Positions 7,516 to 35,184 of a stretch of DNA of 64,000 nt are shown piece after piece (positions within the stretch are counted from its first letter, which is position 1; each line of letters starts with the position of its first letter). This stretch comes from Kiritimatiellia bacterium (GTDB lineage Bacteria; Verrucomicrobiota; Kiritimatiellia; CAIQIC01; Lenti-01): contig JAFXQI010000042.1 in NCBI GenBank assembly GCA_017527155.1, positions 1 through 64,000 of the forward strand, written 5' to 3'. The notes under the pieces were generated by a model. That model was not told the origin of the DNA. It was given only the letters and a program-made list of their open reading frames with translations, and did not search any database. A program made the position numbers and the translations under genes.

Positions 7516-7578
7516 TGAGAAAACTGGGGAGGGAGGGGGCGGGGGATGGGGGGTAGCAATCAAAGGGATGAGAAAACC
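7516..7578. repeat. Candidate left end of prophage: two TGAGAAAAC copies
   Basis: TGAGAAAAC occurs at 7516 and 7569, 53 bp apart. Between them GGATGGGGGGTAGCA (7544-7558) resembles, in inverted orientation, TGCATCCCCCCATCC at 36530-36544 near the other end. Such repeated sites are what a Mu-type transposase would bind. Assignment is tentative. Confidence 0.35.
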
Positions 7579-7604
7579 AAGTTGGGGGTGCCAGGACAAA
7601 TGAA

Positions 7605-7633
7605 AGCCCCTTGCAGGGAGGCTGCAAGGGGGC
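7605..7633 (-). terminator. Intrinsic terminator of the leftward early operon
   Basis: CCCCTTGCAG and CTGCAAGGGG pair perfectly around a 5-base loop, and on the minus strand the stem is followed by CTTTCATTTG. It lies about 25 bp past the last leftward phage gene. Confidence 0.65.
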
Positions 7634-7655
7634 GGAAAGGTGGGGGCCGGACGGG

Positions 7656-8884: not shown

Positions 8885-8914
8885 GGGGTGTTCCTTTCGG
8901 GGGTGGAGGGTTTT

Positions 8915-9925: not shown

Positions 9926-9957
9926 GGGGGTTCCTTTGGTTTGGGTTGGTTAGTTTT

Positions 9958-14273: not shown

Positions 14274-15989
14274 TCACGCCTCCTCGTCAAGGGTGGGGAG
14301 GGCGTCGGCTTCGGCGTCGGGGTCGGCGTCTGGGTCGGCGAAGTCGTCGCCGGGGTCGGGGTCGTCGGGGGTGTCTTCGGGGAAGTCTTCGTCGAGGGCG
14401 TCGGGGGCGTCGAGGTCGGCACCGAGCGCAAGGGGGGCGGAAGAGGAGAGGGAGGGGCGGAGGGATTGGAGGGAGGGGGTGGAGAGGAGGGAGGGGGACT
14501 CAATCACGGGGGCGAAGGTGCCGTCTTCGGGCAGATGTGAGCCGCCAATGTAAACTCTCGAATTCCCGCTTAGAATGACAGGTTGTGTGACAGTGCTGCG
14601 AACAAAAACCCAGCCGACATCGGGCACAAACGAAATCAGGCATTCATAGAAAGATGCACTCGTCCCCGTTGTCGAAATGATCGAAGTCCCATCTGCCGTT
14701 TGGAGAATCCCCGCACCAGCCGCTGCTTTGTACCAATGGAGATCGAGGGTACGCGGTTCCTGCGGGGACCAATCTGGAAACCCAATGATGTTGGTGGTCC
14801 CCGCGGCCGATAACACAACAAAGCAGTGGACGGTTCTTGCAGGCCAGTTTGTCGGTATCCAGTTCGGTTGCGTGTTGGAAAGGGATGCGCCGGTCCACTT
14901 GCACCAGTACTCCTCCAGCATCCATTCGACCTCCCCCACCCTCTCCTCCACGGCTTCGACGGAGGCGGTGGTCGCGAGGTCGGCGAGGGCGGAGGAGTGG
15001 ACGTAGTCGGCCTCGATTACGGAGAGGCGGGTGGAGTTGGTGGCGATGTTGCCGGCGTTGGTCGCGACGGCGCCTTGGACGGCGGCGATGCCGGCGGCGT
15101 TGGCGTCGATGGCGCCTTCGGCGGTGGTGGTGCGCCAGGAGAGGGAGGCGAGGTCGGCGCGGACGGCGGCGACGGCGCTGTTGGAGGCGTAGATGGACAT
15201 GTCGGGGAGGTTCGTCCAGGTGTCGGGGCCCAGGGTGAGCCCCTGGCCTTCGGGGATGGCGAGGCCCTGGGAGGCGGTGAAGGGGCGCTCGGCGGTGATG
15301 CCGGTGCCGTGGGGGGTGGAGGCGCCCGCGAATACGCGGTAGAACTGGTAGGGCTCGTCGAGGTAGGTGATGCGCCAGGTGGTGGAGACGTCGGTGGTGT
15401 CGGTGACGACAGCGTTGGTGGCGGTGGTCCAGGATTCGACGGCCATGAGGTCGGTGGTGACTTCGATGGTGGCGCCGTCGGAGGCGAGGGCGTTGGCCTG
15501 GATGGTCAGGCCGTCGTTGTCGGCGGAGAGGATTGTCGCCTTGATGAGGGAGTTGGTGCTGCCGGCTTCGCGGTTGCCATCGACGCGCAGGACGATGTTG
15601 GTGCCGTAGCGGAGGAGGCAGGAGTCGCCTTCGGCCCGCAGGCTGTAGTGGGCGTTGAGCTTGAGGGCGTGGCCGTTGCAGGCCAGGTCGTTGGTCAGGG
15701 TGTGGTAGTCGGCCTTGCCGACGCAGACGGCGACGCCGCCGGGCGTCTCGCCGTCGGCGTAGTAGAGGCCGGCGTCGGTGGTGGCGTCGGCCGGGCGCCA
15801 GTAGAGGAGGCCTTCTTCAAGGGGTTCCAGTTCGGCTTCGGGGCCGATCTTCTGGACGACGATGTTGGTGATGATGATGGGGATGACCTCGGCGGCGGCT
15901 GGCGCCACCGCCGAAGGAAGAAGGAAGAAGGACGAAGCAAGAAGTGCGGCGTGCAGCATGGCTGCAAGACGGTTGCGGGTGGGGGGCAT
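14274..15989 (-). CDS. Secreted fibre-like phage protein with acidic tail
   Basis: The 571-residue protein begins with a Sec signal peptide (RNRLAAMLHAALLASSFFLL, cleavage likely after AAA near residue 33). Beta-rich repeats follow, then a helical stalk (NAAGIAAVQGAVATNAGNIA and onward, about residues 260-340) of the type seen in trimeric fibres. A distinct distal domain (about 365-480) has lower GC, and a very acidic Asp/Glu/Pro tail closes it. The ATG has AAGGAGACACCACCC upstream. It is odd for a fibre to be exported and to sit in the early leftward operon; it may be displayed by the lysogen rather than built into virions. Confidence 0.6.
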   Translation of the reverse strand: MPPTRNRLAAMLHAALLASSFFLLPSAVAPAAAEVIPIIITNIVVQKIGPEAELEPLEEGLLYWRPADATTDAGLYYADGETPGGVAVCVGKADYHTLTNDLACNGHALKLNAHYSLRAEGDSCLLRYGTNIVLRVDGNREAGSTNSLIKATILSADNDGLTIQANALASDGATIEVTTDLMAVESWTTATNAVVTDTTDVSTTWRITYLDEPYQFYRVFAGASTPHGTGITAERPFTASQGLAIPEGQGLTLGPDTWTNLPDMSIYASNSAVAAVRADLASLSWRTTTAEGAIDANAAGIAAVQGAVATNAGNIATNSTRLSVIEADYVHSSALADLATTASVEAVEERVGEVEWMLEEYWCKWTGASLSNTQPNWIPTNWPARTVHCFVVLSAAGTTNIIGFPDWSPQEPRTLDLHWYKAAAGAGILQTADGTSIISTTGTSASFYECLISFVPDVGWVFVRSTVTQPVILSGNSRVYIGGSHLPEDGTFAPVIESPSLLSTPSLQSLRPSLSSSAPLALGADLDAPDALDEDFPEDTPDDPDPGDDFADPDADPDAEADALPTLDEEA

Positions 15990-16017
15990 GGGTGGTGTCT
16001 CCTTGGGTGGGGGTTGG

Positions 16018-16236
16018 TCAGGCTTCCTTGGCGATCGGGACAACCGGGACGGGCGGGACGGACGGGACGGGAGGCAGGCCGCGGGCGCGGCGGCTGGCCT
16101 TGTTGCGCTGTTCGTGCAGCTTGCGCCGGACGGTGTGATGGATGCCGACGAGAAGGGCGTCGCGCTTGGTCTCGTCGGTCTCCTGCTGGGCCATGTTGAG
16201 CAGGATGAGGGAGGCTTCGAGTTTGGTGGGTTTCAT
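16018..16236 (-). CDS. Small helical phage protein with Pro-rich tail
   Basis: Seventy-two residues: MKPTKLEASLILLNMAQQET begins a helical region rich in Lys and Arg (residues 1-50), followed by PPVPSVPPVPVVPIAKEA. The ribosome site is AAGGACAACC. It ends 28 bp before the secreted fibre-like gene. No family recognised. Confidence 0.55.
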   Translation of the reverse strand: MKPTKLEASLILLNMAQQETDETKRDALLVGIHHTVRRKLHEQRNKASRRARGLPPVPSVPPVPVVPIAKEA

Positions 16237-19307: not shown

Positions 19308-20693
19308 ATGGGAAGGGCGAAGAACATTCCGGCGAAGGATGCGCTGCTGCTGCCGTACCAGGCGGCGTGGGTGGCGGACGCGTCGCGGCTGAAAATCGCG
19401 GAGAAGAGCCGGCAGATCGGATGGACGTGGGCGACGGCCTACGGGCTGGTGCGGCGGAAGGCGCTCAGGGGGGCGAAGCGGGATGCGTGGATTTCCAGCC
19501 GGGACGACATCCAGGCGCGGCTTTTCCTGGAGGATTGCAAGGGGTTCGCGGGGCTGCTGCAGACGGGGGCGCGGGACCTGGGGGAAAAGGCGGTGGACGA
19601 CGACGGGCACAGCGCCTACGTGCTGGGCATGGCGAACGGGCTGCGAATCCACAGCATGAGCAGCAATCCGGACGCGCAGGCGGGCAAGCGCGGGGACCGG
19701 GTGCTGGACGAGTTCGCGTTGCACCCCGATCCCCGGAAACTCTACTCCATCGCATACCCGGGCATCACCTGGGGCGGGAGCCTGGAAATCTTTTCCACGC
19801 ACCGGGGAACGGGGAATTTCTTCAACCAGCTGCTGGAGGAGGCGAAGCACAAGGGGAATCCGAAGGGGTTCAGCCTCCACCGGGTGACGCTGGAGGACGC
19901 GCTGGACCAGGGGTTTTTGCACAAGCTGCAAGGGGCGCTGCCGGCGGAGGACCCGCGGCAGGAGATGGACGAGGCGGAGTATTTCGACTTCATCAAGTCG
20001 GGGTGCGCGGACGAGGAGACGTTCGCGCAGGAGTACATGTGCGTGCCGAGCGACGACGCGAGCGCGTTCATCGAGTGGGCGCTGCTGGACCGGGCAAAGC
20101 TGCCGGTTCCGCCGGCCGGCCTGGATGCGCTGCCGCGGGACGCGAAGGTGTGGCTGGGGGTGGACGTGGCGCGCAAGAAGGACCTTTTCGCGATCTGGGC
20201 GGCGGTGGAGGAGGCGGGGATGCTGGTCCCGGCGGAGGTGCGGACGCTGCGGGGCGAGAGCTACGCGGCGATGGAGTGCGAGCTGTACGGCATCATGGAC
20301 GAACACGACGTGGTGCGCTGCTGCGTGGACGCCACGGGCATCGGCAACCAGTTCGCGGAACGGGCGCAGGCGCGGTACGGGTGGAAGGTGGAGCCGGTGA
20401 TCTTCACGGCCGCGACGAAGGAAACCATGGCGTATGCGCTGCGCGGCGGGATGGAGGACGGACGGTTCCGGATCCCGGACGATCCGCGCGTGTTCGCGGA
20501 CTTCCGCGGGGTGCGCAAGACGGTCAGCCCCGCCGGGACGGTGCGCTTCGACGCGGCCCGGACGGAGGCGGGGCACAGCGACATCTTCTGGTCCGCCGCG
20601 CTCTGCAACGCGGCGCACGAACAGGCCGCCGCCTGGACGGACCCGCGCTTCGTCGGCGCCGGGCGGGGCGGGTACGAGGAACGGAGGATCTGA
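19308..20693 (+). CDS. Terminase large subunit (Mu gp28-like)
   Basis: A 461-residue packaging motor. The ATPase part carries the phage variant Walker A EKSRQIGWTWA near residues 32-42 and a Walker B VLDEFA at about 131-136. The nuclease part shows three acidic sites: GVDVARKKD, CVDATGIG and GHSDIFWSAAL, as in the RNase-H-like domain of large terminases. Length fits Mu gp28-type enzymes. It acts at the portal vertex of the prohead. Late-gene context on both sides is consistent. Confidence 0.85.
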   Translation: MGRAKNIPAKDALLLPYQAAWVADASRLKIAEKSRQIGWTWATAYGLVRRKALRGAKRDAWISSRDDIQARLFLEDCKGFAGLLQTGARDLGEKAVDDDGHSAYVLGMANGLRIHSMSSNPDAQAGKRGDRVLDEFALHPDPRKLYSIAYPGITWGGSLEIFSTHRGTGNFFNQLLEEAKHKGNPKGFSLHRVTLEDALDQGFLHKLQGALPAEDPRQEMDEAEYFDFIKSGCADEETFAQEYMCVPSDDASAFIEWALLDRAKLPVPPAGLDALPRDAKVWLGVDVARKKDLFAIWAAVEEAGMLVPAEVRTLRGESYAAMECELYGIMDEHDVVRCCVDATGIGNQFAERAQARYGWKVEPVIFTAATKETMAYALRGGMEDGRFRIPDDPRVFADFRGVRKTVSPAGTVRFDAARTEAGHSDIFWSAALCNAAHEQAAAWTDPRFVGAGRGGYEERRI

Positions 20694-20696
20694 CGC

Positions 20697-22832
20697 ATGG
20701 CACGGCTGTACACGGTGGCGGATGCGAAGCGGCGGCGGACCGCCGCGGACGCGTGGCTGGAAAGGATGAACCCGCTGCGGGGGCTGAGCATCCGGCAGGC
20801 CGAGAACATCTACGACGCGGCGCGAGGCGGGAACTACGCGCTGCTCCACCTGCTGTACTCGGAGATCGAGAAGACCGACCCGGTGCTGCTCACGTGCGTG
20901 GAACGGCGCGCGGCCGCCCTCGCGGGCCTGGGCTGGAAGGCCGACACGGTTGCCGGCGCGGACGCGGGGCTCGCCAAGGAGCAGTCGGCCGCGATCGGCG
21001 AGCTGATCGCCGGGATCGGGAACTTCGAGGAGGCGCTGGAACACCTCGACGGCGGGTTCTTCCGCGGGTTCGCCCACGCGGAGCCGGTGCACGGCCCCGA
21101 CGGATCGGTGCGGAGCCTGCTGCTGCCCGAGAGCTGGAACTTCTGCCGGGACCCGGGAACGGGCGCGTGGTGGTGGAACCCGGACGCGCTCACCGCGGAG
21201 CCGGGCATGGGCGGTATGGCGGAAATCCCGTCCGGACGGCTCGTCACGGTGTGCCGTCCGCGCGCGATCGACTACCCGGCGCTGAGCATCTACCTGCGCT
21301 GCGCGCTGGCGGAACGGGACTGGGGGCGGTTCGTGGAGCGCTACGGACTGCCGCCCGCCATCCTCACCGCGCCCGCCAACACGACGAAGGAGCAGGAAAC
21401 GATGCTCGCCGCCGCCGCCGGCGACGTGGCCGACGGCCGCAGCGGCGTGGTGCCCAACGGCACCTCCATCAATTTCGCGACGGAAGCCAGGGGAACGGAC
21501 CCGTTCACGGCCTTCATCACCCACCAGGAGAAGCTGGTTGTTTTGCTGGCGACGGGCGGGACGCTCACCTCCCTCGCCGAGGCCGGCAGCGGCACGCTCG
21601 CCGGGAACGCCCAGATGGACGTCTGGCGGCAGATCGTCAGCCGGGATGCCGCCATCATCGGCGCGGCCCTGGACCGGACGCTGGTGCAGCCGTGCCTGCG
21701 GGCGCGGTTCCCCGGCCGGCCGGCCGCGGCGTCGTTCGCCCTGGGCGCGGACCGGGACCTCTCCGCCGAGGAGGTGTTCGAGGTCGCCGCCAAGGCGAGA
21801 ACCGCCGGCTACGTCGTCGCCGAGGCCGACCTGGAAGGCCGGACCGGCTTCGCCCTGGAACGGGAGCAGGATGCCCCCGGAATGGGCGCCGCGGGCACCG
21901 GCGGGCTCTTCAACGCGAGGGTGCCCGACGGGATGCCATTGCAATCCCCTGCAATTCCCTTGCAAAACGCGCGCACCGGGGAGGGGGCCACCACGGGCCG
22001 TCCCGGGGAGAAGCCCCCCTCTGCGGGGCTCCTGGAGCCTTCCGCCCCCGGCGAGGGCGAAACCCGCCTTGCACGGGCCATGCAGCGGGATTTGCGGCCC
22101 GCCGCCAAGATCATCGCCGAGGCGCTGCGGACGCACGACTGGAAGGCCGCCCGCAAGCAGCTCGCCGGCGCGCTCAAGGAGTGCGGGACGGAGAGCGCGG
22201 AGGCGCTGGAGGCGGAGATGCGTGCGGCAGGGGAGAAGGCGTGGCCGGAAACTCACGCAGAGGCGCAGAGAGGCGGAGGCGCGGAGGGGGTGGCGAACTC
22301 GGAACGTGTCCCGGCCGGACATGGGAACGGAGGACAGTTTACCGGGAAGACGAATCCACCGGACGGGAAGACGAAGTCGAAGCCAACTGTCGGCTCGACA
22401 AACCCAGACCCACCCGAAGTCCAGGCAAAGCAAATCGAGAAAGCCAAGGCGGCATTTGCCAAGTGCCTCGAAACGCACGAGGACGTGGAAAATGCTTTCA
22501 CACGGGGCGACATCGGCCCAATCGACGTGAGATGGGGACAGGAACGAAAGGGTATCCGCCACTTGGTCGAACGGCGGGACGGCTTTGCCAAGTCCCACCC
22601 AGGAGCTCTGGACGGACGCCAGACACTGGAGACAATCGCTGAAACCACGGTGCGGGGTAAAATCACCGAAGTCACACGCAAAAGCGGCCACAATACAGTG
22701 GCCATCGAACACGAAGGCTTCCGTTCTTTGCTGACACAGGATGGCGAAGGCGGGAACCATTGGGTGCTTTCGGGCTACGAAATCAGCGAAGAGGGGCGCG
22801 GATACCGCAAAAAGAAAGCGGGGCAGAGATGA
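20697..22832 (+). CDS. DUF935-type portal protein fused to a BECR-like nuclease domain
   Basis: The 711-residue product is much longer than a normal Mu portal (about 500). Residues 1 to about 430 match DUF935 portal proteins (YSEIEKTDPVLLTCVERRAA, ALSIYLRCALAERDWGRFVE, GNAQMDVWRQIVSRDAAII). A variable linker then holds a dispersed repeat and the pre-toxin motif RVPAGHGNGGQFTG near 535. Residues about 590-705 (GDIGPIDVRWGQERKGIRHL, TVRGKITEV, HWVLSGYEI) resemble the phage Barnase-EndoU-ColicinE5/D-RelE nuclease domains usually found on MuF proteins. GC drops in this tail, which suggests a later acquisition. The tail may be injected with DNA or act on the host; activity is unproven. Confidence 0.75.
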   Translation: MARLYTVADAKRRRTAADAWLERMNPLRGLSIRQAENIYDAARGGNYALLHLLYSEIEKTDPVLLTCVERRAAALAGLGWKADTVAGADAGLAKEQSAAIGELIAGIGNFEEALEHLDGGFFRGFAHAEPVHGPDGSVRSLLLPESWNFCRDPGTGAWWWNPDALTAEPGMGGMAEIPSGRLVTVCRPRAIDYPALSIYLRCALAERDWGRFVERYGLPPAILTAPANTTKEQETMLAAAAGDVADGRSGVVPNGTSINFATEARGTDPFTAFITHQEKLVVLLATGGTLTSLAEAGSGTLAGNAQMDVWRQIVSRDAAIIGAALDRTLVQPCLRARFPGRPAAASFALGADRDLSAEEVFEVAAKARTAGYVVAEADLEGRTGFALEREQDAPGMGAAGTGGLFNARVPDGMPLQSPAIPLQNARTGEGATTGRPGEKPPSAGLLEPSAPGEGETRLARAMQRDLRPAAKIIAEALRTHDWKAARKQLAGALKECGTESAEALEAEMRAAGEKAWPETHAEAQRGGGAEGVANSERVPAGHGNGGQFTGKTNPPDGKTKSKPTVGSTNPDPPEVQAKQIEKAKAAFAKCLETHEDVENAFTRGDIGPIDVRWGQERKGIRHLVERRDGFAKSHPGALDGRQTLETIAETTVRGKITEVTRKSGHNTVAIEHEGFRSLLTQDGEGGNHWVLSGYEISEEGRGYRKKKAGQR
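22251..22287. repeat. Dispersed CTCACGCAGAGGCGCAGAG repeat inside the portal gene
   Basis: The element is read in frame in the portal linker. Reverse-complement relatives lie at 58526-58540 and 58941-58960 in host intergenic DNA. Confidence 0.8.
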
Positions 22833-22956
22833 AACCGGCGACGGTGTCAAGTCATCCGGCCCTACGCATCCGCGGCCTACGAGCGCTTCGTCCGCGGACG
22901 GTTGCCCTGCCCATCTATGGGCAACGTACCACTACTTCCAGGAAAGGCAAGGCGGA

Positions 22957-23175
22957 ATGAGCGCACGCAACAAGCTGGATTGCCGGGTATGCGGCCAGGA
23001 CGTGTTCGCCAAGACGGTCGTGCACGTGCACGGAACGCGGCGGACGGTGACGATGACGGGCTGGTGCAAGCAGTGCGGGAACGGCGTGCGGCGGCGCGAG
23101 GTGTTCGAGGCCGGGAAGCGCGTGGACGCCGAGGTCGCGGTGCTGGCGCCGAAGAAAGACGGAGGTGCGGAATGA
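22957..23175 (+). CDS. Small zinc-ribbon phage protein
   Basis: Seventy-two residues with two CxxC knuckles, LDCRVCGQDV at residues 7-16 and GWCKQCGNGV at about 35-44, which should bind one zinc. Mu has a zinc-finger translational activator, Com, but the resemblance is limited to the ribbon and no mom gene is nearby. It overlaps the protease gene by 4 bp (ATGA). Ribosome site: GGCAAGGCGGA. Confidence 0.65.
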   Translation: MSARNKLDCRVCGQDVFAKTVVHVHGTRRTVTMTGWCKQCGNGVRRREVFEAGKRVDAEVAVLAPKKDGGAE

Positions 23176-24035
23176 GCGTGCTCGAATTGCCGAAAAGGGT
23201 TGCGCCGGGCGACGAGATCGAGGTGCAGCTGGCACCGCTGGGGGAGTGGCCGGTGAGGGTCAAGGGCAAGGACGGGAAGCGGGAGAGCATCAAGCAGCTC
23301 TTCGACGCGGCCTCTTGCGCGGCGGTGGTCGGGAATTTCTCGCGGGAACTTCTGGTGGACCTGGACCACGCCAGCGTCATCGGCGGCAACACGCGGGCAT
23401 ATGCCTGGGTGACGGCGCTCCGGGCGGACGAGGAACTGGGGCTGGTGGGGACGTTCCGCTTCACGGAGGCGGGGGCGGAGGCGGTGAACAGCAAGGAATA
23501 CCGCTACGTCTCGGTCTTCTGGTTCCTCGACAAGGAGAACCGGCCGACGCTGCTGGACAGCGTGGCTCTCACGAACCGCCCGAACCTTCCCGTTCGCCCG
23601 GTCCTCAACCGGGAGGGGGCGGTGGTGGAGAACGATCTGGAAAACAAACCCGAAAGGAAACCGAACATGGACAAACTCAAGGAATTGCTGGGCCTGCCTG
23701 CGGACGCGGACGAAGAGACGGTCGCCAATGCCGTCGCCGCGCTCAAGGCGCGCCTGGACGAACTGGACGCGGCGGCCGCGAACGCGGAGGCGGAAACCTT
23801 CGCGGCGGCGAACGCGGAACTCGTCCAGGACCAGGCCGCGCTCAAGGACGCGTACCTCTCGAACAAGGAGCTGGCCAAGGCGATGGTGGCGAACTTCAAG
23901 CGCCCCGCCGCGCCGCCGACCCCGGTGTGCGACCCGGCGACGGCCCGCAAGCCGGCGCTCAACTCCAAGCCCCTCCCCGAGCGGATGGCGGGGCTGACTC
24001 CCGCGCAGGCGTGCGACGCGCTGCTCAAGGACTGA
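23172..24035 (+). CDS. Prohead protease (Mu I-like)
   Basis: The 287-residue product has an N-terminal half typical of Mu-like I proteases: SRELLVDLDHASVIGGNTRAY-type His-containing strand region near residues 57-75, TGTFRFTEAG-like middle, and YVSVFWFLDKENRPTLLDSV leading to the Ser-bearing segment. The C-terminal half is Ala/Glu-rich and helical, the scaffold part. It starts on the ATGA overlap with the zinc-ribbon gene. It should process scaffold and capsid during prohead maturation. Confidence 0.8.
   Translation: MSVLELPKRVAPGDEIEVQLAPLGEWPVRVKGKDGKRESIKQLFDAASCAAVVGNFSRELLVDLDHASVIGGNTRAYAWVTALRADEELGLVGTFRFTEAGAEAVNSKEYRYVSVFWFLDKENRPTLLDSVALTNRPNLPVRPVLNREGAVVENDLENKPERKPNMDKLKELLGLPADADEETVANAVAALKARLDELDAAAANAEAETFAAANAELVQDQAALKDAYLSNKELAKAMVANFKRPAAPPTPVCDPATARKPALNSKPLPERMAGLTPAQACDALLKD
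23667..24035 (+). CDS. Nested in-frame scaffold protein (Mu Z-like)
   Basis: Inside the protease gene, ATG 23667 is preceded by AAAGGAAACCGAAC, as strong a ribosome site as that of the capsid gene. Translation from it would give a 122-residue helical protein beginning MDKLKELLGLPADADEETVA. In Mu the scaffold gene Z is nested in the same way within I. The internal start is an inference from site strength and family precedent. Confidence 0.6.
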   Translation: MDKLKELLGLPADADEETVANAVAALKARLDELDAAAANAEAETFAAANAELVQDQAALKDAYLSNKELAKAMVANFKRPAAPPTPVCDPATARKPALNSKPLPERMAGLTPAQACDALLKD

Positions 24036-24088
24036 CGATCTAGACAAGCAAGGCAAGCAACCGAAAAGCCAAACGAAAGGAAACGACA

Positions 24089-25000
24089 ATGGCAACTTCC
24101 CTTACCGATCCCTCCCTGGTGTTCGCGGCCAACAAGGCGCTGATCGCGGCGCATCCGGCCATCGCCAAGGTCTCGGAGTTCGCGACGGACTTCTCCTCCG
24201 ACGCGGTGCAGCCGGGCGACACGCTGAAGGTGTTGTTCTTCGACACCAACCCCGCCACGGCCTACGACGAGGTGAACAACAACTACGGCACCGTCAACGG
24301 CACGCTGGGCAACGTCTCGGTGACGTTCGACCACCGGGTCAAGAAGACCTACGCCTACAAACCCACCGACCACCTGAAGGTCAACCCCGCCGTCTGGAAG
24401 CGCCGGGGCGACGCGGCGGGCGTTTCCATCTCCCTCGCCATCGAAAGCGCGGTCTCCCTGGTCATCAACAAGACCAACATCCCCAAGACGGGGACGGGGT
24501 CGGCGGCCAACGAGAGCGTGCTTTCGAACATCACGAAGGCGAACCTGGCCAAGCTGCGCGCGGCGGCGGATGCGGCCGGCATCAACCCCGGACAGACGGT
24601 GCTGGTGCTGAATCCCTCCGCCTTTGCCGAGATGCTGGCGCTCTTCGACGCCAACATCTACGGCGGCACGGAAGCCATCCGCAACGGCGTGGTGCCCGGC
24701 CTCTACGGCTTCAAGTCCATCATGCAGCTCCCGCTGGACACGGCCGCCGCCGAGAAGCTCGTCGGCGCCCTGGTTCCTTCGGAAGCGCTGGGCATCGCCG
24801 GCCGCACCATCCCCGCGGACGACGTTGGCTCCGGCGCGGAATGCGGCTTCACCACCGACGAGGAAAGCGGCCTGACGATCGGCACCTACGCGTTCGTGGA
24901 CCACAACACCCGCGAGCACAAGTTCACGATGGAAGCGCTCTTCGGCGCCAAGCTCATCCAGCCCGAGAAGTGCGTCCGCCTGGTCAGCGCGGCGACCTGA
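24089..25000 (+). CDS. Major capsid protein
   Basis: A 303-residue capsid-sized protein directly after the protease/scaffold gene, with a strong ribosome site (AAAGGAAACGACA). The N-terminal MATSLTDPSLVFAANKALIA and the later LRAAADAAGINPGQTVLVLN and AIRNGVVPGLYGFKSIMQLP fit HK97-fold coat proteins; Mu T is 296 residues. No delta-domain is seen, consistent with a separate scaffold. It forms the icosahedral shell. Confidence 0.82.
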   Translation: MATSLTDPSLVFAANKALIAAHPAIAKVSEFATDFSSDAVQPGDTLKVLFFDTNPATAYDEVNNNYGTVNGTLGNVSVTFDHRVKKTYAYKPTDHLKVNPAVWKRRGDAAGVSISLAIESAVSLVINKTNIPKTGTGSAANESVLSNITKANLAKLRAAADAAGINPGQTVLVLNPSAFAEMLALFDANIYGGTEAIRNGVVPGLYGFKSIMQLPLDTAAAEKLVGALVPSEALGIAGRTIPADDVGSGAECGFTTDEESGLTIGTYAFVDHNTREHKFTMEALFGAKLIQPEKCVRLVSAAT

Positions 25001-26848: not shown

Positions 26849-27468
26849 GCTTCCAGGTCGAATACAAACCCACCCCCGTCCTCGATCGGCTCATCCGCTC
26901 GCTCGGTCCCGACGGACGCCGCACCCTCGCCGTCGCCGGCGCCGCCGAAGCCGCCCGGAACACGCAGAAATACCTCCGCGGCCTCGCCGCCTCCCGCCAC
27001 GCCACCGCCGGCAAGCTCGGCGCCGCCCCCACCCAGGTCATCGGGCGCGCCGCCGCCGGGACCATCGCGCGCGAGGACTGCGTGGTGGTGCCCCATCCGC
27101 TCTTCAAGCGCGCGTTCGGCGATGTGACGATTGCGCCGCGCACCGCCCGCGCCCTCGCCATCCCCATGCACCGTGACGCCTACGGCCACGGCCCCCGCAC
27201 CATGTCCGGACTCTTTGTCTGGAAGCGCAACCGCAAGGCCGAAGGCCCCGAGGACAAGGGCGCCGCCTTCCTCGCCCGCTCCGTCGGCAAGGGCAAGAAC
27301 GCCCGCCTGGAACTGATGTACCTCCTCCACCGCGGGCGCATCCTCCAGCGGCAGGACCGTACCCTCCTCCCCTCCGACGAGGACACCGCCGCCGCCGCCA
27401 TGAAGGGCCTCTCCTCCCGCCTCAACACCATCCTCCGGGCCGTCGCGGCCCAGAAAGGCGCATCCTGA
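26839..27468 (+). CDS. Phage virion morphogenesis / tail-completion protein
   Basis: The 209-residue basic protein starts MAVSFQVEYKPTPVLDRLIR and has a central RAFGDVTIAPRTARALAIPM strand followed by a basic loop, as in phage virion-morphogenesis (gpG-type) and HK97 gp10-type neck proteins. The start lies 10 bp inside the preceding gene. Gene order (connector, morphogenesis, completion, tube) supports a neck role. Confidence 0.6.
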   Translation: MAVSFQVEYKPTPVLDRLIRSLGPDGRRTLAVAGAAEAARNTQKYLRGLAASRHATAGKLGAAPTQVIGRAAAGTIAREDCVVVPHPLFKRAFGDVTIAPRTARALAIPMHRDAYGHGPRTMSGLFVWKRNRKAEGPEDKGAAFLARSVGKGKNARLELMYLLHRGRILQRQDRTLLPSDEDTAAAAMKGLSSRLNTILRAVAAQKGAS

Positions 27469-27470
27469 GC

Positions 27471-27932
27471 ATGCCCGCCACCCGCCCCAGCCTCACCCAG
27501 ACCGCCCAGGCCAATATCCGCCGCCAGCTCCTGGAACACCCCGCCACCGCCCAGTTCTTCCGCGGCATGGGCGAGCGCATCATCGCCGCCGATCCGGGCG
27601 CCCTCCTCGCCACCCTCGCCGAAACCATCGCCGGCCTCTCCCTCGGCATCCTCATCGAAATCGTCGGCGGCCCCGCCCCCGGCTGGGGAGAGGAAATGTG
27701 GGATGCCGACATCACCATCTTCGAGAACCCCGTCCTCAACCGCGCCGGCAACTGGGACGGCAAGAGCGCCGATGTCGTCCTCGACGCCGTCCTCCGCTGC
27801 TTCGCCGACTGCGGCGCCTTCGTCCCCGGACCCGTCGAGCAGCTTCCCGGCACCGAGCGCACCGGCTGGATCGTCCACGGCAAAACCACCGTCGCCATGC
27901 TCGAAAACCCCAACCCCGGCGGCGCCTGCTGA
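27471..27932 (+). CDS. Hypothetical neck/tail-terminator protein
   Basis: 153 residues with an N-terminal helix (QTAQANIRRQLLEHPATAQF) and a C-terminal mixed part (ITIFENPVLNRAGNWDGKSA, GWIVHGKTTVAMLENP). It starts 2 bp after the morphogenesis gene and precedes the tail-tube gene, where tail-terminator proteins usually lie. I do not recognise the family, so the role rests on place. Confidence 0.5.
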   Translation: MPATRPSLTQTAQANIRRQLLEHPATAQFFRGMGERIIAADPGALLATLAETIAGLSLGILIEIVGGPAPGWGEEMWDADITIFENPVLNRAGNWDGKSADVVLDAVLRCFADCGAFVPGPVEQLPGTERTGWIVHGKTTVAMLENPNPGGAC

Positions 27933-27962
27933 CCCTTTGGAAAGTAAACGAAAGGAAAACCC

Positions 27963-29039
27963 ATGAGCATATCCAGACATTCCGCCATCCGCCGAGGCCC
28001 CGCCATCCTCGAATTCTCCTGGCGGACCAAAAGCGGAACCCAGTGGACCACCCACACCTACCGCGTCCGGACGCAGGGCGACGTCGTCTTCACCCCCGAA
28101 ACGCGCACCTTCGACATCCCGAGCTCCGAACTCGGCACCATCGACCGCCGCGCGAGCGAAAAGCTGGCCACCTGCACCTTCACCCCCGTGGGCGTGGTGG
28201 ATGCCGACGGCATCTCCATCCTCTGGCCCCACCTCGCCAAGTGGCCGGGGCAGAGTTTGTTCGGCGCGAGGGACGTGACGCTTTGCGTCTGGCCGGTGGC
28301 GGGGGCGGACGCATCCTCGAACGACAACTCCTTCATCATCATGGAGAACGTCGCCGTCACGAAGATGCCGTCGATTACCCTCTCGCCCACCAAGACCGCC
28401 ATCGGCCAGGTCGAGGTCCGCGGCATTCTGTCCGACGACCACATTTGGGGTTGCGACACCCATTGGCACATGACCGACGAAAGCGCCCCGACGCTGGCCG
28501 CTCTCGATCCGGCGAGCATCATCACGGCCCCGGCAACCCTCGCGTGGGGCGGCTGGGACAACATCCGCACGAAGGACGGCGTGACCATCGAGTTCGACAT
28601 GGAGACGCAGGACGAGGAGGAGGACGAAGCCGGCATCTACGACATCACGCTCGTCGATCTCAAGGCCCGTGCCCACTTCACGCCCGTCGCGGGCTGGGAC
28701 ATGGACGATCTCTACGACCGCCTCCACAACCAAGACGACCTCTACCGCGGCGGCAGGGTCTTCCGCGCGGACGTCACGGCGACCAGCAAGGAGCCGGGCG
28801 GGCTGATCGTCAACCTCTACGGCTGCTCCCTGCTCACGATGCCGATGACCTACGGGGCGACGAGCCCCCGCCTCGGCGAACTGACCCTCGAAGGCCTCCG
28901 CGGCACCGGCAATGCCATCGCCGCCATCACCCTCGCCACCGCCCAGACCGCCTCGCCCCGCTCCACCTCCGCCGCCACCCCCGGCGACGGGGAGGGCGGC
29001 GGCGACGGCGAGGGCGACGGCGAAGGCACCGGCACCTGA
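27963..29039 (+). CDS. Putative major tail (tube) protein
   Basis: The 358-residue, beta-rich protein lies between neck and tape-measure genes. The ribosome site ACGAAAGGAAAACCC is strong, as for an abundant protein. Segments such as TFDIPSSELGTIDRRASEKL and IGQVEVRGILSDDHIWGCDT look like the beta sandwich/barrel of tail-tube subunits. A Gly/Asp/Glu low-complexity tail (GDGEGGGDGEGDGEG) closes it. No tail-sheath gene is present, so a non-contractile tail is likely. Confidence 0.6.
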   Translation: MSISRHSAIRRGPAILEFSWRTKSGTQWTTHTYRVRTQGDVVFTPETRTFDIPSSELGTIDRRASEKLATCTFTPVGVVDADGISILWPHLAKWPGQSLFGARDVTLCVWPVAGADASSNDNSFIIMENVAVTKMPSITLSPTKTAIGQVEVRGILSDDHIWGCDTHWHMTDESAPTLAALDPASIITAPATLAWGGWDNIRTKDGVTIEFDMETQDEEEDEAGIYDITLVDLKARAHFTPVAGWDMDDLYDRLHNQDDLYRGGRVFRADVTATSKEPGGLIVNLYGCSLLTMPMTYGATSPRLGELTLEGLRGTGNAIAAITLATAQTASPRSTSAATPGDGEGGGDGEGDGEGTGT

Positions 29040-29065
29040 CCACCTGACCAGGCGAAGGAGAGGCC

Positions 29066-29641
29066 ATGCGCATCGAGCTGATCACCGCGACCTACGACGG
29101 CACCGAGGGCCACACGCGCGCCGACGCGGCGCGCCTCGTCCTCGCCGGGACGGACGGCGCCGTCGGCGACCACTACGCCCCGGCCAGCGGCGTCGAGGGC
29201 GAAGCGGACGTGGAGGTGCAGGAAAGCAAGCCCATCGGCGCGGCGCACCGCCGGCTCTTCATGCGCGGCAACCAGGCCAACGGCCTCTCCTTCACGGTCA
29301 AGCCCAAGTACGCCTCCCTGGCCGCGGCCGCCATCGGCGCGATCGTCCTGCGCGGCCGCGCCGGGGCCACCGGCCAGCTCGTCATCACTCCGGGACCCGG
29401 CGCCGTCCCGGAGGAGGACGACGGCCAGGAAGAGGAAACCACGCCCGGGGAGGAACCCACCCCCACCCAGGAACAGACCCCGGAACCGGACCCCGTCCCG
29501 CCCGCCCCCGCCCTCGTCTATCCCGACGAGGAGGTCGATGGCACCCCCGTATTCACCGGCGACCGGGAGGCCGTAATCCGGCGCGTCCGGACCAAGCAGA
29601 TCGGCGTCACCGTGGAGGCCAAGTATGACATCGAGTGGTAG
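29066..29641 (+). CDS. Hypothetical tail protein with Pro/Glu-rich linker
   Basis: 191 residues. A beta-rich N-terminal domain (MRIELITATYDGTEGHTRAD) and a short C-terminal beta part (AVIRRVRTKQIGVTVEAKYD) are joined by an acidic Pro/Thr/Glu linker at about residues 112-152. It overlaps the next gene by 17 bp. No family recognised; tail association is from context. Confidence 0.5.
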   Translation: MRIELITATYDGTEGHTRADAARLVLAGTDGAVGDHYAPASGVEGEADVEVQESKPIGAAHRRLFMRGNQANGLSFTVKPKYASLAAAAIGAIVLRGRAGATGQLVITPGPGAVPEEDDGQEEETTPGEEPTPTQEQTPEPDPVPPAPALVYPDEEVDGTPVFTGDREAVIRRVRTKQIGVTVEAKYDIEW

Positions 29642-31628
29642 CCGCATCTTCCTTGCAACCGCCTTGCTGGCCCTGTGCATCGTCCCGGCCAGCCCGGCGG
29701 CCGCGCCCGCATTCCGCGGACGCGACATCCTGCGCCGCCCCGACATGTGCAACGTGGACGTCATCGACACCGTCTCCTGGTATGCCAACGAATCCGTCCG
29801 CCTCTCCATCGAGCCCTGGCGCTGCGGCGAGCGCATCCCCATCCCCGGCGACGCCACCGCCCTCTGGATCGTCGCCGACGAAGGCGGCACCAACTGGATC
29901 GTCCGCTACGCCGCCGCCGTCACCTCCACCAACCTCCTCTTCGAGCTCGCCCCCGGAGAAGGCGCCCTCCCTTCCGGCCACGACTACTCCGGCTTCGTCG
30001 ATCTCATGCGCGGCACCAACGTCCTCGGCGTCGTCGACCGCTTCGAGGTCGCCTGCATCACCAGCGCCTACGGCACCTCCGCCATCTCCCCCGCCGCCGG
30101 CACCTGGGAAGGCATCGCCGCCGCCGTCACCTCCAACGCCGCCGCCATCGGCGAGCTCCGCGCCGCCACCAACGCCGTCAACCAGGCCGCCCTCGACGCC
30201 ATCGACGAACGCATCGACAGCCTCTGGGCCGAGTGCAAGGGCGGCTGGCGCTGGCCCGACTACTTCACCATCGACGCCGTCACCGCCGGTGCCAGCGACG
30301 GCGCCTTCACCAACGCCTTCAGCTCCACCAACACCGAGCACAACGTTGTCATCGGTTCCGGCGTCCAGTCCATCTACAAGGGCTGGCGCTTCGACACCAC
30401 CATCCTCCGCACGCGCGACTTCGGCGTCGGAATCGTCTTCTCCGACGACGCTTCCGGCGATTCCTCCCTCCTCCCCCTCGACTATTCCGGTGGCAACGTC
30501 CGCTTTCCCGATGACTCCGACTTCGATGCCCTCGACCGCCTCGATGACGCGGCCATGCACGCCGCCATTGACCGCCCCGTCACCGCCACCCTCGGCACCC
30601 GCGTCCTAATCACCAACCTCGTCTGGAACGGCTCCGCCCAGCGCCGCACCTCCTCCTGGAACATCTTCATCTCCCCGGCCCCGGGCTCCCTCCTCGCGGA
30701 CCTCTGGGACCACGTCCTCGCCACCGCCAGCAACCGCGCCGCCGCGCCCTGGGACAAGGCCCTGCGGGTCTGGCCATCCGGTACCGGCGACGCCCACGAC
30801 ACCCAGGCCCACCCGCCCGTGGCCTGGAACACCAAGTTCTTCGCCTACGGCCTCGCCGACTTCTCCGCCGTCTCCTACTGGGCGGAGGGAGCCAATGCGC
30901 CCGGCGGCCCCGGATGGCCATCCGGAACCTACCGCCCCGTCACGATGGTCACACCCCGCCACGGCATCGTCGCCGACCACTGGAAACCCGCCACCGGCTC
31001 CAACGTCCTCTGGCTTGGCCGCTCCGGCACCATCATCACCAACAAGGTCAAGGCCTACGCCAACCTCCGCGGCGACCTCACCGTCGCCCGCCTGGACCAC
31101 CCCGTGGATACCAACGAAATCACGCCCGCGGCCCTCTTCCGGCAGAACCTCGGCGTCGCCCCCTACCTCTGCGGAGACTCCAACAACGTCCCCGGATTCT
31201 ATCGTGCCGGCAATGACGGAACCTGGGGTGTCCCCGTCCTCCCCTTCAATGCCGCCGAATACAGCGGACTCGCCTGGTGGCGCCCCGGCTGCCTCGTCCG
31301 CGGAAATCCCGAACTCCACGAAGAGTTCTTCGACAACATCCAGGACAACTCCCTTCCCCAACGAAAAGTCACCGCCATGGGCGGCGACTCCGGCAGCCCC
31401 ACCTTCGTCCTCGTCCCCGGCTGCGCCCCGCCCGTCCTCCTCGGCTGCTACCACTATTCCACCGTCACCAACCGCAACTACGCCTACGGCGGCGGCCCCA
31501 TCCCCTACGCCGAAGAAGTCAACGACGCCATCGCCGCCTGGGGCGACCCCGAACGCGCCGCCGCCATCGACTTCGGTGCCCTCGGCTACCCCAACTACAA
31601 CACCAACAACCTCCCGCCCGGACCATGA
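29625..31628 (+). CDS. Exported phage tail-type protein with a trypsin-like protease domain
   Basis: The 667-residue protein starts with a Sec signal (RIFLATALLALCIVPASPAA). Residues about 45-150 are beta-rich and resemble the N-terminal domain of baseplate upper (BppU-type) proteins, then a helical stretch (about 160-205). The C-terminal part carries a full chymotrypsin-fold triad: His446 in MVTPRHGIVADHW, Asp484 in GDLTVARLD, and Ser589 in MGGDSGSP. Start ATG 29625 has GGAGG upstream. An exported serine protease from a phage structural operon is very unusual. It may cleave host or rival surface proteins, or be carried on the tail. Confidence 0.75.
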   Translation: MTSSGSRIFLATALLALCIVPASPAAAPAFRGRDILRRPDMCNVDVIDTVSWYANESVRLSIEPWRCGERIPIPGDATALWIVADEGGTNWIVRYAAAVTSTNLLFELAPGEGALPSGHDYSGFVDLMRGTNVLGVVDRFEVACITSAYGTSAISPAAGTWEGIAAAVTSNAAAIGELRAATNAVNQAALDAIDERIDSLWAECKGGWRWPDYFTIDAVTAGASDGAFTNAFSSTNTEHNVVIGSGVQSIYKGWRFDTTILRTRDFGVGIVFSDDASGDSSLLPLDYSGGNVRFPDDSDFDALDRLDDAAMHAAIDRPVTATLGTRVLITNLVWNGSAQRRTSSWNIFISPAPGSLLADLWDHVLATASNRAAAPWDKALRVWPSGTGDAHDTQAHPPVAWNTKFFAYGLADFSAVSYWAEGANAPGGPGWPSGTYRPVTMVTPRHGIVADHWKPATGSNVLWLGRSGTIITNKVKAYANLRGDLTVARLDHPVDTNEITPAALFRQNLGVAPYLCGDSNNVPGFYRAGNDGTWGVPVLPFNAAEYSGLAWWRPGCLVRGNPELHEEFFDNIQDNSLPQRKVTAMGGDSGSPTFVLVPGCAPPVLLGCYHYSTVTNRNYAYGGGPIPYAEEVNDAIAAWGDPERAAAIDFGALGYPNYNTNNLPPGP

Positions 31629-31648
31629 ACCAGAAAGGACCCCAATCC

Positions 31649-32176
31649 ATGAAACACGCCCTCACCCTCCTCCTCTGCCTGGCCCTCGCCCAATGCGGCC
31701 TGAGCCGCGCATGGGCCGACGCCGTAACCCTCCCCGAAGCCCCGCCCCCCGCCGTCGAGCCCGGCGGTCCGGACACCTCCGACTTCGCCGCCTCCGCGCC
31801 GATCGGCACCGACCTCGCCATGCTCTGCCACGTCCCCGCCGACGGCAGCGTGCCCTACACCCTCACGCCAGCCGCCACCCCCGCTTCCCCCTTGACCCTC
31901 CAGGCCGGGACCGGCGCCGACACCCGCCTCGGCGTGGACGTCGCCGGCATCCAATCGCAAGCCGACCGCGAAGGCTGGGGATGGCAGGAGTGGACCATCT
32001 GCGGCATCTGCATCGCCGCCGTGGCCGCTGCCTCCGTCTTCATCGTGCAGGCCACCCAAGCCGGCGACCACACGTCCGGCGACGACTCCTCGACCCGCTA
32101 CAACATCGGCGTCGGCGGCGAGGGCAACTCCGTCTCCGTCCGTATCGATTCCCCGTCCAGCGAGCATCGTCCATGA
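31649..32176 (+). CDS. Exported, membrane-anchored phage protein
   Basis: 175 residues: a Sec signal (MKHALTLLLCLALAQCGLSR, cleavage likely after AWA), a Pro-rich mature part, a transmembrane segment (WTICGICIAAVAAASVFIVQ, about residues 117-136) and a Ser/Asp-rich tail. Ribosome site AAAGGACCCCAATCC. It overlaps the next membrane gene by 4 bp. The pair could be lysis or envelope proteins; no family recognised. Confidence 0.55.
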   Translation: MKHALTLLLCLALAQCGLSRAWADAVTLPEAPPPAVEPGGPDTSDFAASAPIGTDLAMLCHVPADGSVPYTLTPAATPASPLTLQAGTGADTRLGVDVAGIQSQADREGWGWQEWTICGICIAAVAAASVFIVQATQAGDHTSGDDSSTRYNIGVGGEGNSVSVRIDSPSSEHRP

Positions 32177-32604
32177 GGTTCATCATGCGCATCGTTTCCT
32201 CCATCTGCCGCCTCGGCGCCGCCATCGCCGAACTCTTCCTCCTCCGCGCCAAGCGCAAACCCGCCGCCGATGCCCAGGCCGCCGCCACCGACGCCCGCGA
32301 AGCCGTCGCCCGGCACGACGAAGACGCCGTCAACACCGCCATCGAGAACGCCCGCCTCCGCCGCGCCGCCCGCCGACGGTCCGGCTTCTTCGCCATCGAG
32401 ATCGTCGCCGCCATCCTCCTCCTCGCCCTTTGCCTGGCCTTCGGCTGCGTCCGCACCCGCACCCGCACCCTCGTCATCCCCGCCGACCGCCACGTCGTCC
32501 ACTTCGTCCACGAAGGCGTCGAAGGCTGGTTCGTCCCCGACGCCACCATGGCAGACCTCGTCGAGTCCTACGTCCTGGACTCCCCAAACCCGAAAGGAGA
32601 ATGA
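32173..32604 (+). CDS. Membrane protein, possible lysis-associated protein
   Basis: 143 residues: a basic amphipathic N-terminus, an Ala/Arg/Asp-rich helical stretch (residues 30-70), one transmembrane segment (FFAIEIVAAILLLALCLAFG) and an outward beta part (HVVHFVHEGVEGWFVPDATM). Size and topology recall spanin-type lysis proteins but no signature is present. The ATG overlaps the upstream stop as ATGA. Confidence 0.5.
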   Translation: MRFIMRIVSSICRLGAAIAELFLLRAKRKPAADAQAAATDAREAVARHDEDAVNTAIENARLRRAARRRSGFFAIEIVAAILLLALCLAFGCVRTRTRTLVIPADRHVVHFVHEGVEGWFVPDATMADLVESYVLDSPNPKGE

Positions 32605-32608
32605 CCCC

Positions 32609-32962
32609 GTGAAAGCCCTCTTCATCCGCCTTGCAACCTGGCTGAAAAGCCTTTTCCAGACCCGGACCAAACGCCTCTTCGTCCTCGCCTGGAAGGCCGC
32701 CACCGACACCGCCCTCGACCGCCTCAACGACCCCGACCTCCAGCAAGCCGCCCTCGTCTGCGTGCAGGCCGCCGCCGCCAAGGCCCTCCGCGGCGACGAC
32801 GCCTGGGACGAAGCCTGGGCCTCCTTCCGCGCCCATGCCCTCGCCGCCGGCAAGGACTGGGGCCGCTCCACCCTCGAAACCATCCTCCAAGTCACCTACT
32901 CCCGCTTCAAGGACTCCCTCCTCCCCGCCGACAACGCCACCACCGTCTCCACCCTCCCATGA
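32609..32962 (+). CDS. Hypothetical helical phage protein
   Basis: 117 residues from a GTG start that has GAAAGGAGA about 10 bp upstream. An amphipathic basic N-terminal helix (KALFIRLATWLKSLFQTRTK) is followed by two or three helices. It ends on an ATGA overlap with the tape-measure gene, so it is part of the tail operon; tail-assembly chaperones occupy this slot in many phages, but no frameshift signal was seen. Confidence 0.5.
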   Translation: MKALFIRLATWLKSLFQTRTKRLFVLAWKAATDTALDRLNDPDLQQAALVCVQAAAAKALRGDDAWDEAWASFRAHALAAGKDWGRSTLETILQVTYSRFKDSLLPADNATTVSTLP

Positions 32963-35184
32963 ACACGCCAGTTGACGCCGAAATCCTCATAAAAGTCCTC
33001 ACCTCCTTCGAGTCGGGAGGAATGGATGCCGCCATCGCTACCATCAACCAGCTCGGCCAGGCCGCCGACAAATCCTCCAAAGATGGCGACAAGCTCGCCG
33101 CCCTCATGGACCTGGTCAAAAACAAGGCTGGCGACGCCAAGAACATCTTCACCGGCCTCTGCCAAGTCCTGAAAGGCGGTACGGGCACCGTCGCGGGCTT
33201 CGGCAGGGCCGCCAGTGGCCTTGCCACCGCCTTCGGCGCCGCGGCCGGCCCCGTCGGCCTGGTCGTCACCGCCGTCCAACTCGGTGTCACAGCCCTGATA
33301 GCCTGGCAGCAACACCAGGACGCCGCCGCCGAAGCCGCCGAGAAAGCCGCCGAACGGGAAAAAGAAGCCGCCGAGAAAGCCAAACAGGCCATCGAAGACC
33401 TCGACAAAGCCCGAGCCGATGCCGCCCGCGCCGCCATCGCCGACCTCAAGGAAGAACTCGATGGCGCCACCAACGCCGCCCGGGCCACCCGCACCGCCCT
33501 CGACGCCCTCGAAGACTCCGAACTCGCCGTCAAGATCGCCGGCATCGACGCCCAGGAAAAATCGGGCAAGATCGACTCCGACACCGCCGACTACCTCAAG
33601 AACAGGGCCCGCGTCGACTCCGCCAACCGCAAGGACAAGCGCGCCCTTGACGACCTTTCCGAAGAAGAAACCCGTCTCACCACAGCCCGCAACAAATCCG
33701 CCCAGGCCGCCTTCGATGCCGCCACCGAATGTGAAAAGGCCGACAAGGCATTCAATGACGCCGAAGCCGCCCTCGCCCAAGCCAGCGCCGAGCTCGCCGC
33801 ATTCGAGGCAAGAGGACCGATCAGTCTCTATGATGCTGACGCCGCCGAGCGCATCTTTGAGCACAAACAACTGGAAGAGGCCAAAGCCACCGCCGAGAAA
33901 CACCGTGACGCGGCCAAGGCCGAAGCCGAATCCGCCGGCACCGAGCTTCACGCCGCCAACGCCAAGGCCAAGGCGGCCGCCGACGAACTCGCCGCAGCCC
34001 GCATCGACACCCGTCGCCAAACCCTCCAGAACAACATCGACGCCCGCAACACCACCATCAAGGCCACGGAAGATGCCCGAATCGCCGAATCCAAAAGGCA
34101 GGCCGACATCGACAAACATGAAGCCGAATTAGAACCCATCAGAACCGCTTTGAAGGAGGCCGACGGGCAGGCCGCCGCGGACATCCAAGCCGAAAAAAAC
34201 ACCCTTGCCAGGCACGCCGCCGACCGCGCGCTCCAAATCAAGCAGCTCGACCGCCAGCTTATCGGTGTTACCGACCCCCTCCAGGAACTCGAAATCAAGC
34301 GTAAGAAAGAGGAAATCAAGGATGCCGGCGACCGCGAACAAGCCGAGTATCGCGTCGGCGAAATCCAGCGTGAAATCTCACGCCTGGGCGAAGACGCCAC
34401 CAACGCCCAGCGCGAAAACCTCGAATCCCAGCTCGCTACCGCCCAAACCCAGCTCGAAGCCCAAAAGCAGGACGCCGCCAACCACGCCGCCCAATACAAC
34501 TACGCCCGCCAGCAGCTCCAAGCCGCACAAAATGCCGCCGCCCCCGAAGCCCCGGTCGAAGAAAAGCCCCTCAAGGACCTCTCTCCCTCCGAACGCCTCG
34601 CCCGCAACAAAGCCAAGCGCCAGGACAAACGCGCCCCCGCCTCCGAATCCCCCGCCTCCGAAACCACCCCCGCCGAATCCGCGCCGTCCACCAAGCCCTC
34701 CAAGAAATCACTCTCCAAACCCGCCTCCTCCGCCCCCGCCCAATCCGCCCAGACAGCCGAAGCCGCCATCACCGCCGCCTCGGCCGCCAACGAAACCGCC
34801 GTCACCGACCTTTCCGCCGCCCTCGACCACCTTCCCGAGGTCGTTCCCGACCTCTCAGGTCTCTCCTCCTCCATCGCCGCCGCCGACACCGCCGCCCAGT
34901 CCGCCGCCTCCTCCAACGCCCAGACCCTATCCTCCCTCTCCTCCTCCCTCCAGTCCCTCTCCACCCTCGTCGTCAACCTCTCCTCCCTCACATCCAAAAT
35001 ACAGACCCTCACCACCAACATCAACTCCGCCGCCACCCGGATCTCCAACGCCTTCCAGACCGCCACCGGCGTCATCGAACACCTCACCAACGTCTTCCCC
35101 GACTTCGACAACCTCATCAACGCCGTCAAGAAACTCGACAAGCGCGTCGACAAACTCGAGCACGACCTCAGCCGCATCGATTGA
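32959..35184 (+). CDS. Tape-measure protein
   Basis: The 741-residue product has a hydrophobic helical segment (ATAFGAAAGPVGLVVTAVQL, about residues 88-107), then more than 400 residues of coiled coil rich in Ala, Glu and Lys, a Pro/Ser/Lys-rich break near 540-590, and a Ser/Leu-rich coiled-coil end. This build and the place just before baseplate genes are typical of tape-measure proteins, which set tail length. 741 residues would span roughly 110 nm as an extended helix, which is an estimate. Confidence 0.75.
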   Translation: MNTPVDAEILIKVLTSFESGGMDAAIATINQLGQAADKSSKDGDKLAALMDLVKNKAGDAKNIFTGLCQVLKGGTGTVAGFGRAASGLATAFGAAAGPVGLVVTAVQLGVTALIAWQQHQDAAAEAAEKAAEREKEAAEKAKQAIEDLDKARADAARAAIADLKEELDGATNAARATRTALDALEDSELAVKIAGIDAQEKSGKIDSDTADYLKNRARVDSANRKDKRALDDLSEEETRLTTARNKSAQAAFDAATECEKADKAFNDAEAALAQASAELAAFEARGPISLYDADAAERIFEHKQLEEAKATAEKHRDAAKAEAESAGTELHAANAKAKAAADELAAARIDTRRQTLQNNIDARNTTIKATEDARIAESKRQADIDKHEAELEPIRTALKEADGQAAADIQAEKNTLARHAADRALQIKQLDRQLIGVTDPLQELEIKRKKEEIKDAGDREQAEYRVGEIQREISRLGEDATNAQRENLESQLATAQTQLEAQKQDAANHAAQYNYARQQLQAAQNAAAPEAPVEEKPLKDLSPSERLARNKAKRQDKRAPASESPASETTPAESAPSTKPSKKSLSKPASSAPAQSAQTAEAAITAASAANETAVTDLSAALDHLPEVVPDLSGLSSSIAAADTAAQSAASSNAQTLSSLSSSLQSLSTLVVNLSSLTSKIQTLTTNINSAATRISNAFQTATGVIEHLTNVFPDFDNLINAVKKLDKRVDKLEHDLSRID

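Follow-up and report, generated by a model that had tools for sequence, protein, structure and literature searches.

A predicted chymotrypsin-fold protease with a Sec-type leader in the tail operon of a Mu-like prophage of Verrucomicrobiota

Why should a phage keep a protease with an export signal among its tail genes, and what could such an enzyme cut? This question is raised by a 667-aa protein encoded in the window, i.e., the whole stretch of 64,000 nucleotides from a Kiritimatiellia bacterium (Verrucomicrobiota) that was analysed here. A preliminary description of this DNA had proposed an exported protease of the chymotrypsin fold within a phage tail operon, and this core proposal is supported, the fold by profile comparison, by Pfam matches to relatives and by AlphaFold2 (AF2) modelling followed by Foldseek searches.

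As judged by its family matches, the surrounding element is a Mu-like transposable prophage of a Verrucomicrobiota bacterium, including a Portal_Mu match (E 9e-37) and a MuF-type gene that was assigned by homology between prophages. The genes and signals in question are:

9958-12138 (-): Mu-type transposase (phrog_310, E 3e-10; 33% to the G390 gene)
19308-25000 (+): terminase, Mu-type portal, head protease and major head protein (family matches), upstream of the protease gene
27963-29039 (+): conserved tail gene directly upstream of the slot, with homologues in the G390, G019, G200, G402 and G006 prophages
29066-29641 (+): upstream tail-operon gene (open reading frame reading), overlapping the protease start by 17 nt
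29614-29618 (+): Shine-Dalgarno-like GGAGG, 6 nt before the ATG (read directly)
29625-31628 (+): coding sequence of the 667-aa putative exported fibre protease (open reading frame and GC by codon position)
29625-29705 (+): predicted Sec-type signal peptide, residues 1-27 (AAA/PAF; heuristic n/h/c-region test)
31649-32176 (+): next gene, with a signal-like N-terminus and an internal hydrophobic stretch; no Pfam match

Two further features of the element were observed. The Mu-type portal (20697-22832, +) carries a C-terminal PBECR1 nuclease-like domain (residues 600-697, E 1e-9), possibly a toxin-type fusion, and a minus-strand gene at 14274-16043 (-), distant from the late tail operon and oriented against it, encodes a fibre-like protein (about 570 aa) that has a clear Sec leader and heptad-like repeats and matches no family.

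The GC content by codon position of the 667-aa reading frame (0.62/0.54/0.90) is coding-like and resembles that of neighbouring genes. Its ATG sits inside the end of the upstream tail gene, and this overlap together with the preceding GGAGG makes the start with the Sec-type leader well supported. The leader, MTSSGSRIFLATALLALCIVPASPAAA followed by PAF, has predicted n-, h- and c-regions and an AXA site as expected of a Sec-exported protein, as judged by a heuristic test and not by SignalP. A consensus scan of 27400-33200 found no sigma-70-like promoter, the consensus being one that may not suit Verrucomicrobiota; the overlapping start with its own ribosome site and the missing promoter point to late expression with the tail operon.

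Searched directly, the window protein alone gave no match in Pfam, PHROGs, NCBIfam, PDB, INPHARED or IMG/VR, and its relatives were obtained only through whole-genome and profile searches, with IMG/VR yielding phage loci and GTDB genomes yielding secreted host proteins. In an alignment of 27 sequences, His452, Asp484, Gly587, Asp588, Ser589, Pro592 and Phe594 are invariant, and the profile of this family matches trypsins and chymotrypsin in the PDB (E 5e-5 to 1e-4; trypsins 5e-5 to 7e-5), placing His452 on the histidine of the trypsin AAHC motif and the Ser589 stretch on GDSGGP. Pfam Trypsin matches eight (best 5e-9) and Trypsin_2 six of the 27 members, i.e., the comparison with Pfam Trypsin proposed in the preliminary description came out positive for these relatives and negative for the window protein itself. 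An AF2 model of residues 385-667 from the 27-sequence alignment (pTM 0.76, mean pLDDT 70.7) shows six plus six strands in the two-barrel topology that had been anticipated, and a C-terminal helix, with less confidence in the second half; it replaced an earlier model from 10 sequences (pTM 0.59, poor second half). Foldseek returned 348 PDB matches for this model at E<=1e-3, of which the 50 listed were all chymotrypsin-family proteins headed by chymotrypsin and thrombin (E to 2e-6, target-normalised TM about 0.5), and among predicted viral structures the model is matched best (E 3e-9) by an uncharacterised Caudovirales protein from an uncultured phage. By triad order with the GDSG motif, modelled double barrel with C-terminal helix and sequence homology, the domain is assigned to peptidase family S1, and from alignment and model the 667-aa protein is predicted to carry a chymotrypsin two-barrel protease domain with a His452/Asp484/Ser589 triad:

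30828-31574 (+): S1-type (chymotrypsin-fold) protease domain, about residues 402-650 (alignment, profile, AF2, Foldseek)
30978-30980 (+): predicted catalytic His452, not His446 (invariant in 27 relatives; aligns with trypsin AAHC)
31074-31076 (+): predicted catalytic Asp484 (invariant in 27 relatives)
31389-31391 (+): predicted catalytic Ser589 in GGDSGSP (invariant in 27 relatives)

Of the triad named in the preliminary description, Asp484 and Ser589 are retained and the histidine had to be corrected. His446 in PRHG is missing in L006 (G390), L040 and L062, whereas His452 in ADHW is always kept; L040 and L041 read LTAAH at its position.

In trypsin, the residue six before the catalytic serine sets specificity. 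At this S1-pocket position (189, counted back from the serine) the window protein has Thr583 and no trypsin-type Asp189, and the residue is widely variable across the family; "trypsin-like" therefore describes the fold only. Moreover, no IVGG-type activation N-terminus is seen in the window sequence before the first barrel.

The protease domain is preceded by three segments:

29706-30074 (+): BppU-like N-terminal domain, about residues 28-150 (alignment of eight prophage proteins; marginal profile matches)
30108-30227 (+): presumed helical stalk (heptad-like), about residues 162-201 (read from sequence)
30237-30788 (+): middle domain opening with GGWxxPDxF, about residues 205-388 (motif shared with homologues)

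The alignment of eight prophage proteins suggests a common BppU-like N-terminus for the window, G390, G019, G402, G006 and G185. The BppU-like assignment had been made in the preliminary description and persists in marginal form: the window N-terminus is unmatched by any library, and among the eight aligned N-termini one matches BppU_N (E 0.007), one LtfC (0.007) and three phrog_1084 (best 0.011), all of them marginally. A profile of the N-terminus gave no significant match in the PDB. In the stalk region, the homologues read as collagen repeats (G019) or coiled-coil-like repeats (G006), and the GGWxxPDxF domain is common to the window, G006 and G019 homologues and partly to that of G185.

Apart from the window, an apparently exported protease of this family is found in seven further prophages from six genomes of the class, five of these prophages sharing the BppU-like N-terminus and one having a collagen tail-fibre stalk. 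The prophage of G390 is Mu-like, lies on a complete chromosome and contains transposase, terminase, portal and tail homologues; its predicted exported protease (about 650-715 aa) likewise sits in the slot behind the conserved tail gene, as do the homologues in G019 (terminase 57% identical) and G200:C16. In G402, G006:C35 and G185 the protease lies on contigs with tail or MuF-type phage genes, and in G200:C78 a close copy lies near a terminase match. The G019 homologue matches Pfam Collagen (1.5e-8) and a tail-fibre PHROG (1e-22); most of the latter match comes from the collagen part. The slot protein of a second G006 prophage retains the signal and BppU-like part and differs in its C-terminus, as expected of exchangeable heads. 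G170, G441 and G452 were considered as possible prophages and treated as cellular, as no phage genes were seen.

Further observations were made in these elements. In L018 (G015:C205, 17367-17456), a copy of the leader end and the first BppU-like residues (about 61-63% identical) is joined to an unrelated reading beside a MuF-type gene, i.e., at a rearranged, degenerate or misassembled prophage end. A small protein of 114-133 aa with a strong Sec leader recurs near head or early tail genes of sister prophages (L093 9995-10390, L101 8599-8997, L121 10027-10368), and the tail region of another prophage (L119, G006:C114, 2700-3716) encodes a lipoprotein-leader protein that appears caspase-like by eye (SHGG and DTCNSGSM motifs).

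Relatives also occur in other phages. The large IMG/VR phages L022 and L026 (contigs of 128-166 kb) carry protease genes directly after genes for fibres with Mtd_N, a domain that forms the N-terminus of a known receptor-binding protein. In L028, the protease gene is preceded by one for a collagen-like tail fibre, and a pectate-lyase-like tailspike with its own leader is encoded one gene beyond; in the podovirus-annotated record MW202510, the protease gene follows a gene annotated as rhamnogalacturonan lyase. The protease versions of these four are without signal peptide, and a signal peptide is present in the homologue of L059, an IMG/VR contig carrying Mu-like genes. The 158 kb phage L022 contains two tandem family proteases (6942-10765), each after a paralogous fibre-type gene, and a family protease on the phage contig L027 (2750-3823) has a dockerin type I domain at its C-terminal end (E 8e-9).

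The rarity that the preliminary description ascribed to phage proteases of this fold attached to tail genes is borne out by INPHARED, in which 50,697 records hold only one clear relative, labelled hypothetical, but not by the wider survey, which found at least 17 loci in IMG/VR and, within the class, the domain in 44 of 288 genomes, where it mostly forms part of large secreted proteins of the host. A scan of IMG/VR with the G390 homologue found nothing. In a tree of 53 protease domains, phage and host rows are mixed with at least four changes and many weak forks, and exchange of the domain between phages and hosts appears likely. The window protein, on a long branch among open forks, is not firmly placed and reaches about 30% identity at most to any row.

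What, then, does the protein do? Our favoured reading, to which we give about an even chance of being correct, is that the Mu-like prophage expresses it late as a protein of tail-fibre type, routed through Sec, whose S1 protease head acts on a host-surface protein. This reading builds on what was computed: the fold and triad, the place of the gene in the tail operon, an architecture that recurs in sister prophages, and neighbouring fibre genes in unrelated phages; the position in a tail operon is joined by a fibrous stalk, deduced from sequence in the window and seen as collagen in G019. The protein would comprise five parts, namely a Sec signal peptide, a BppU-like sandwich as presumed tail anchor, a helical, presumably trimeric stalk, the GGWxxPDxF domain and an S1 head predicted to be active as serine protease. 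We infer that it is exported, trimerises and reaches the particle or the surface of the lysing cell, and that the head gives the phage access to its receptor by cutting a protein on the surface of the next host, as a proteolytic counterpart of polysaccharide-cutting tailspikes. Gut proteins, which the preliminary description had listed as substrate, are not supported. Against the fibre reading, tails are assembled in the cytoplasm, which fits poorly with a cleavable Sec signal, the N-terminal assignment is marginal, and the phage may have captured the domain for another purpose, since many secreted cellular proteins of the class contain it.

Another reading is a freely secreted enzyme, made late and exported to the periplasm or medium at lysis, where it would cut proteins of the envelope or outside the cell and in this way aid release or strip receptors from debris and siblings, with the fibre-like parts as anchoring or trimerising modules and not tail parts. 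This would fit a clear Sec leader kept across prophages as distant as 25-30% identity, the leaders on other slot proteins and the secreted nature of the nearest cellular relatives; signal-less homologues adjoining Mtd_N fibre and tailspike genes and the match of the collagen-stalk homologue to tail-fibre families argue against it, and we consider it possible but unlikely. Proximity to fibre genes, repeated across phages and doubled in L022, could alternatively mark a maturation protease cutting precursors of the neighbouring fibres instead of a host protein. This is improbable, as a fibre-like stalk of its own is fused to the enzyme, which export would part from cytoplasmic assembly, and as the variation at pocket position 189 is unlike a dedicated processing site.

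The signal peptide would also suit a lysogenic-conversion (moron) protein displayed on the lysogen, an option that the preliminary description had raised. The gene, however, overlaps a tail gene and shares its late operon, and the 27400-33200 scan, with its possibly ill-suited consensus, gave no promoter-like site of its own; we regard display by the lysogen as very improbable. That a host protease domain was captured and now decays without function could account for the divergence of the window protein, but the intact frame, the strong third-position GC pattern and the intact triad with GGDSGSP leave hardly any room for this explanation.

The leader itself, described as a rarity on such a protease in the preliminary description, is shared by fibre-slot neighbours in sister prophages. 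By the heuristic test, it is present in the G390, G019, G402, G006, G185, G200 and L059 homologues, and in 12 prophage regions, which are mutually related, Sec-type leaders were counted in 14 of 70 non-core reading frames, a group broader than the fibre slot, versus two of 62 core ones (Fisher p 0.003; automatic reading frame calling, Shine-Dalgarno-like motif required). One of the two core cases is a slot reading frame that merely overlaps a core match. This is suggestive of a Sec signal that goes with the fibre class and not with the protease, which would move the puzzle to the fibres and sharpens the question of where these are assembled. Mu-like phages of the class might route tail-fibre proteins, proteolytic and others, through Sec; folding and trimerisation of the fibres would then take place beyond the cytoplasm, and attachment to the particle would follow in the periplasm or once the cell has lysed, a scenario that we regard as doubtful. 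To our knowledge, no such extracytoplasmic route of fibre assembly has been described for tailed phages, and a search of mostly open-access literature found no description of Sec-signalled or trypsin-fold tail fibres.

Enzymatic fibre heads are known for sugars; judging by the relatives in prophages and free phage contigs, some phages appear to use heads that cut protein. If such a head recurs, the list of obstacles that phages clear on the way to a receptor would grow, e.g., by S-layer, surface protein or matrix. Few phages of Verrucomicrobiota have been cultured, and the family is nearly invisible to annotation and almost absent from annotated phage records.

Among known systems, peptidase family S1 (clan PA) shares with the window protein the His-Asp-Ser order, the GDSG motif and the two-barrel topology with C-terminal helix, whereas the window protein differs in its fusion to a phage-fibre-like stalk and has no Asp189-type pocket, IVGG site or direct Pfam Trypsin match. 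The secreted GDSGSP proteins of Verrucomicrobiota (L036-L046 and many in the class) resemble it in catalytic domain, signal peptides and about 20-30% identity, and differ as cellular genes with DSDGDGMPD-type repeats and PEP-CTERM as partner domains. Phage-encoded, trypsin-like serine proteases are also reported from T4-like Alphaproteobacteria phages, in a paper that names them only as present (PMC10783043). The baseplate upper protein BppU of TP901-1 would be alike in its N-terminal sandwich, stalk, variable C-terminus and tail operon, a likeness with marginal sequence support, and unlike in having neither Sec signal nor protease head. Tailspike and tail-fibre enzymes such as depolymerases and deacetylases share the neighbourhood and likewise place an enzymatic head in the fibre slot but act on polysaccharide, while the window head presumably acts on protein; we know of none that carries a Sec signal. 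In this context, the locus would represent a variation on the enzymatic tail-fibre theme; only if fibres are truly routed through Sec would it count as a new kind of system.
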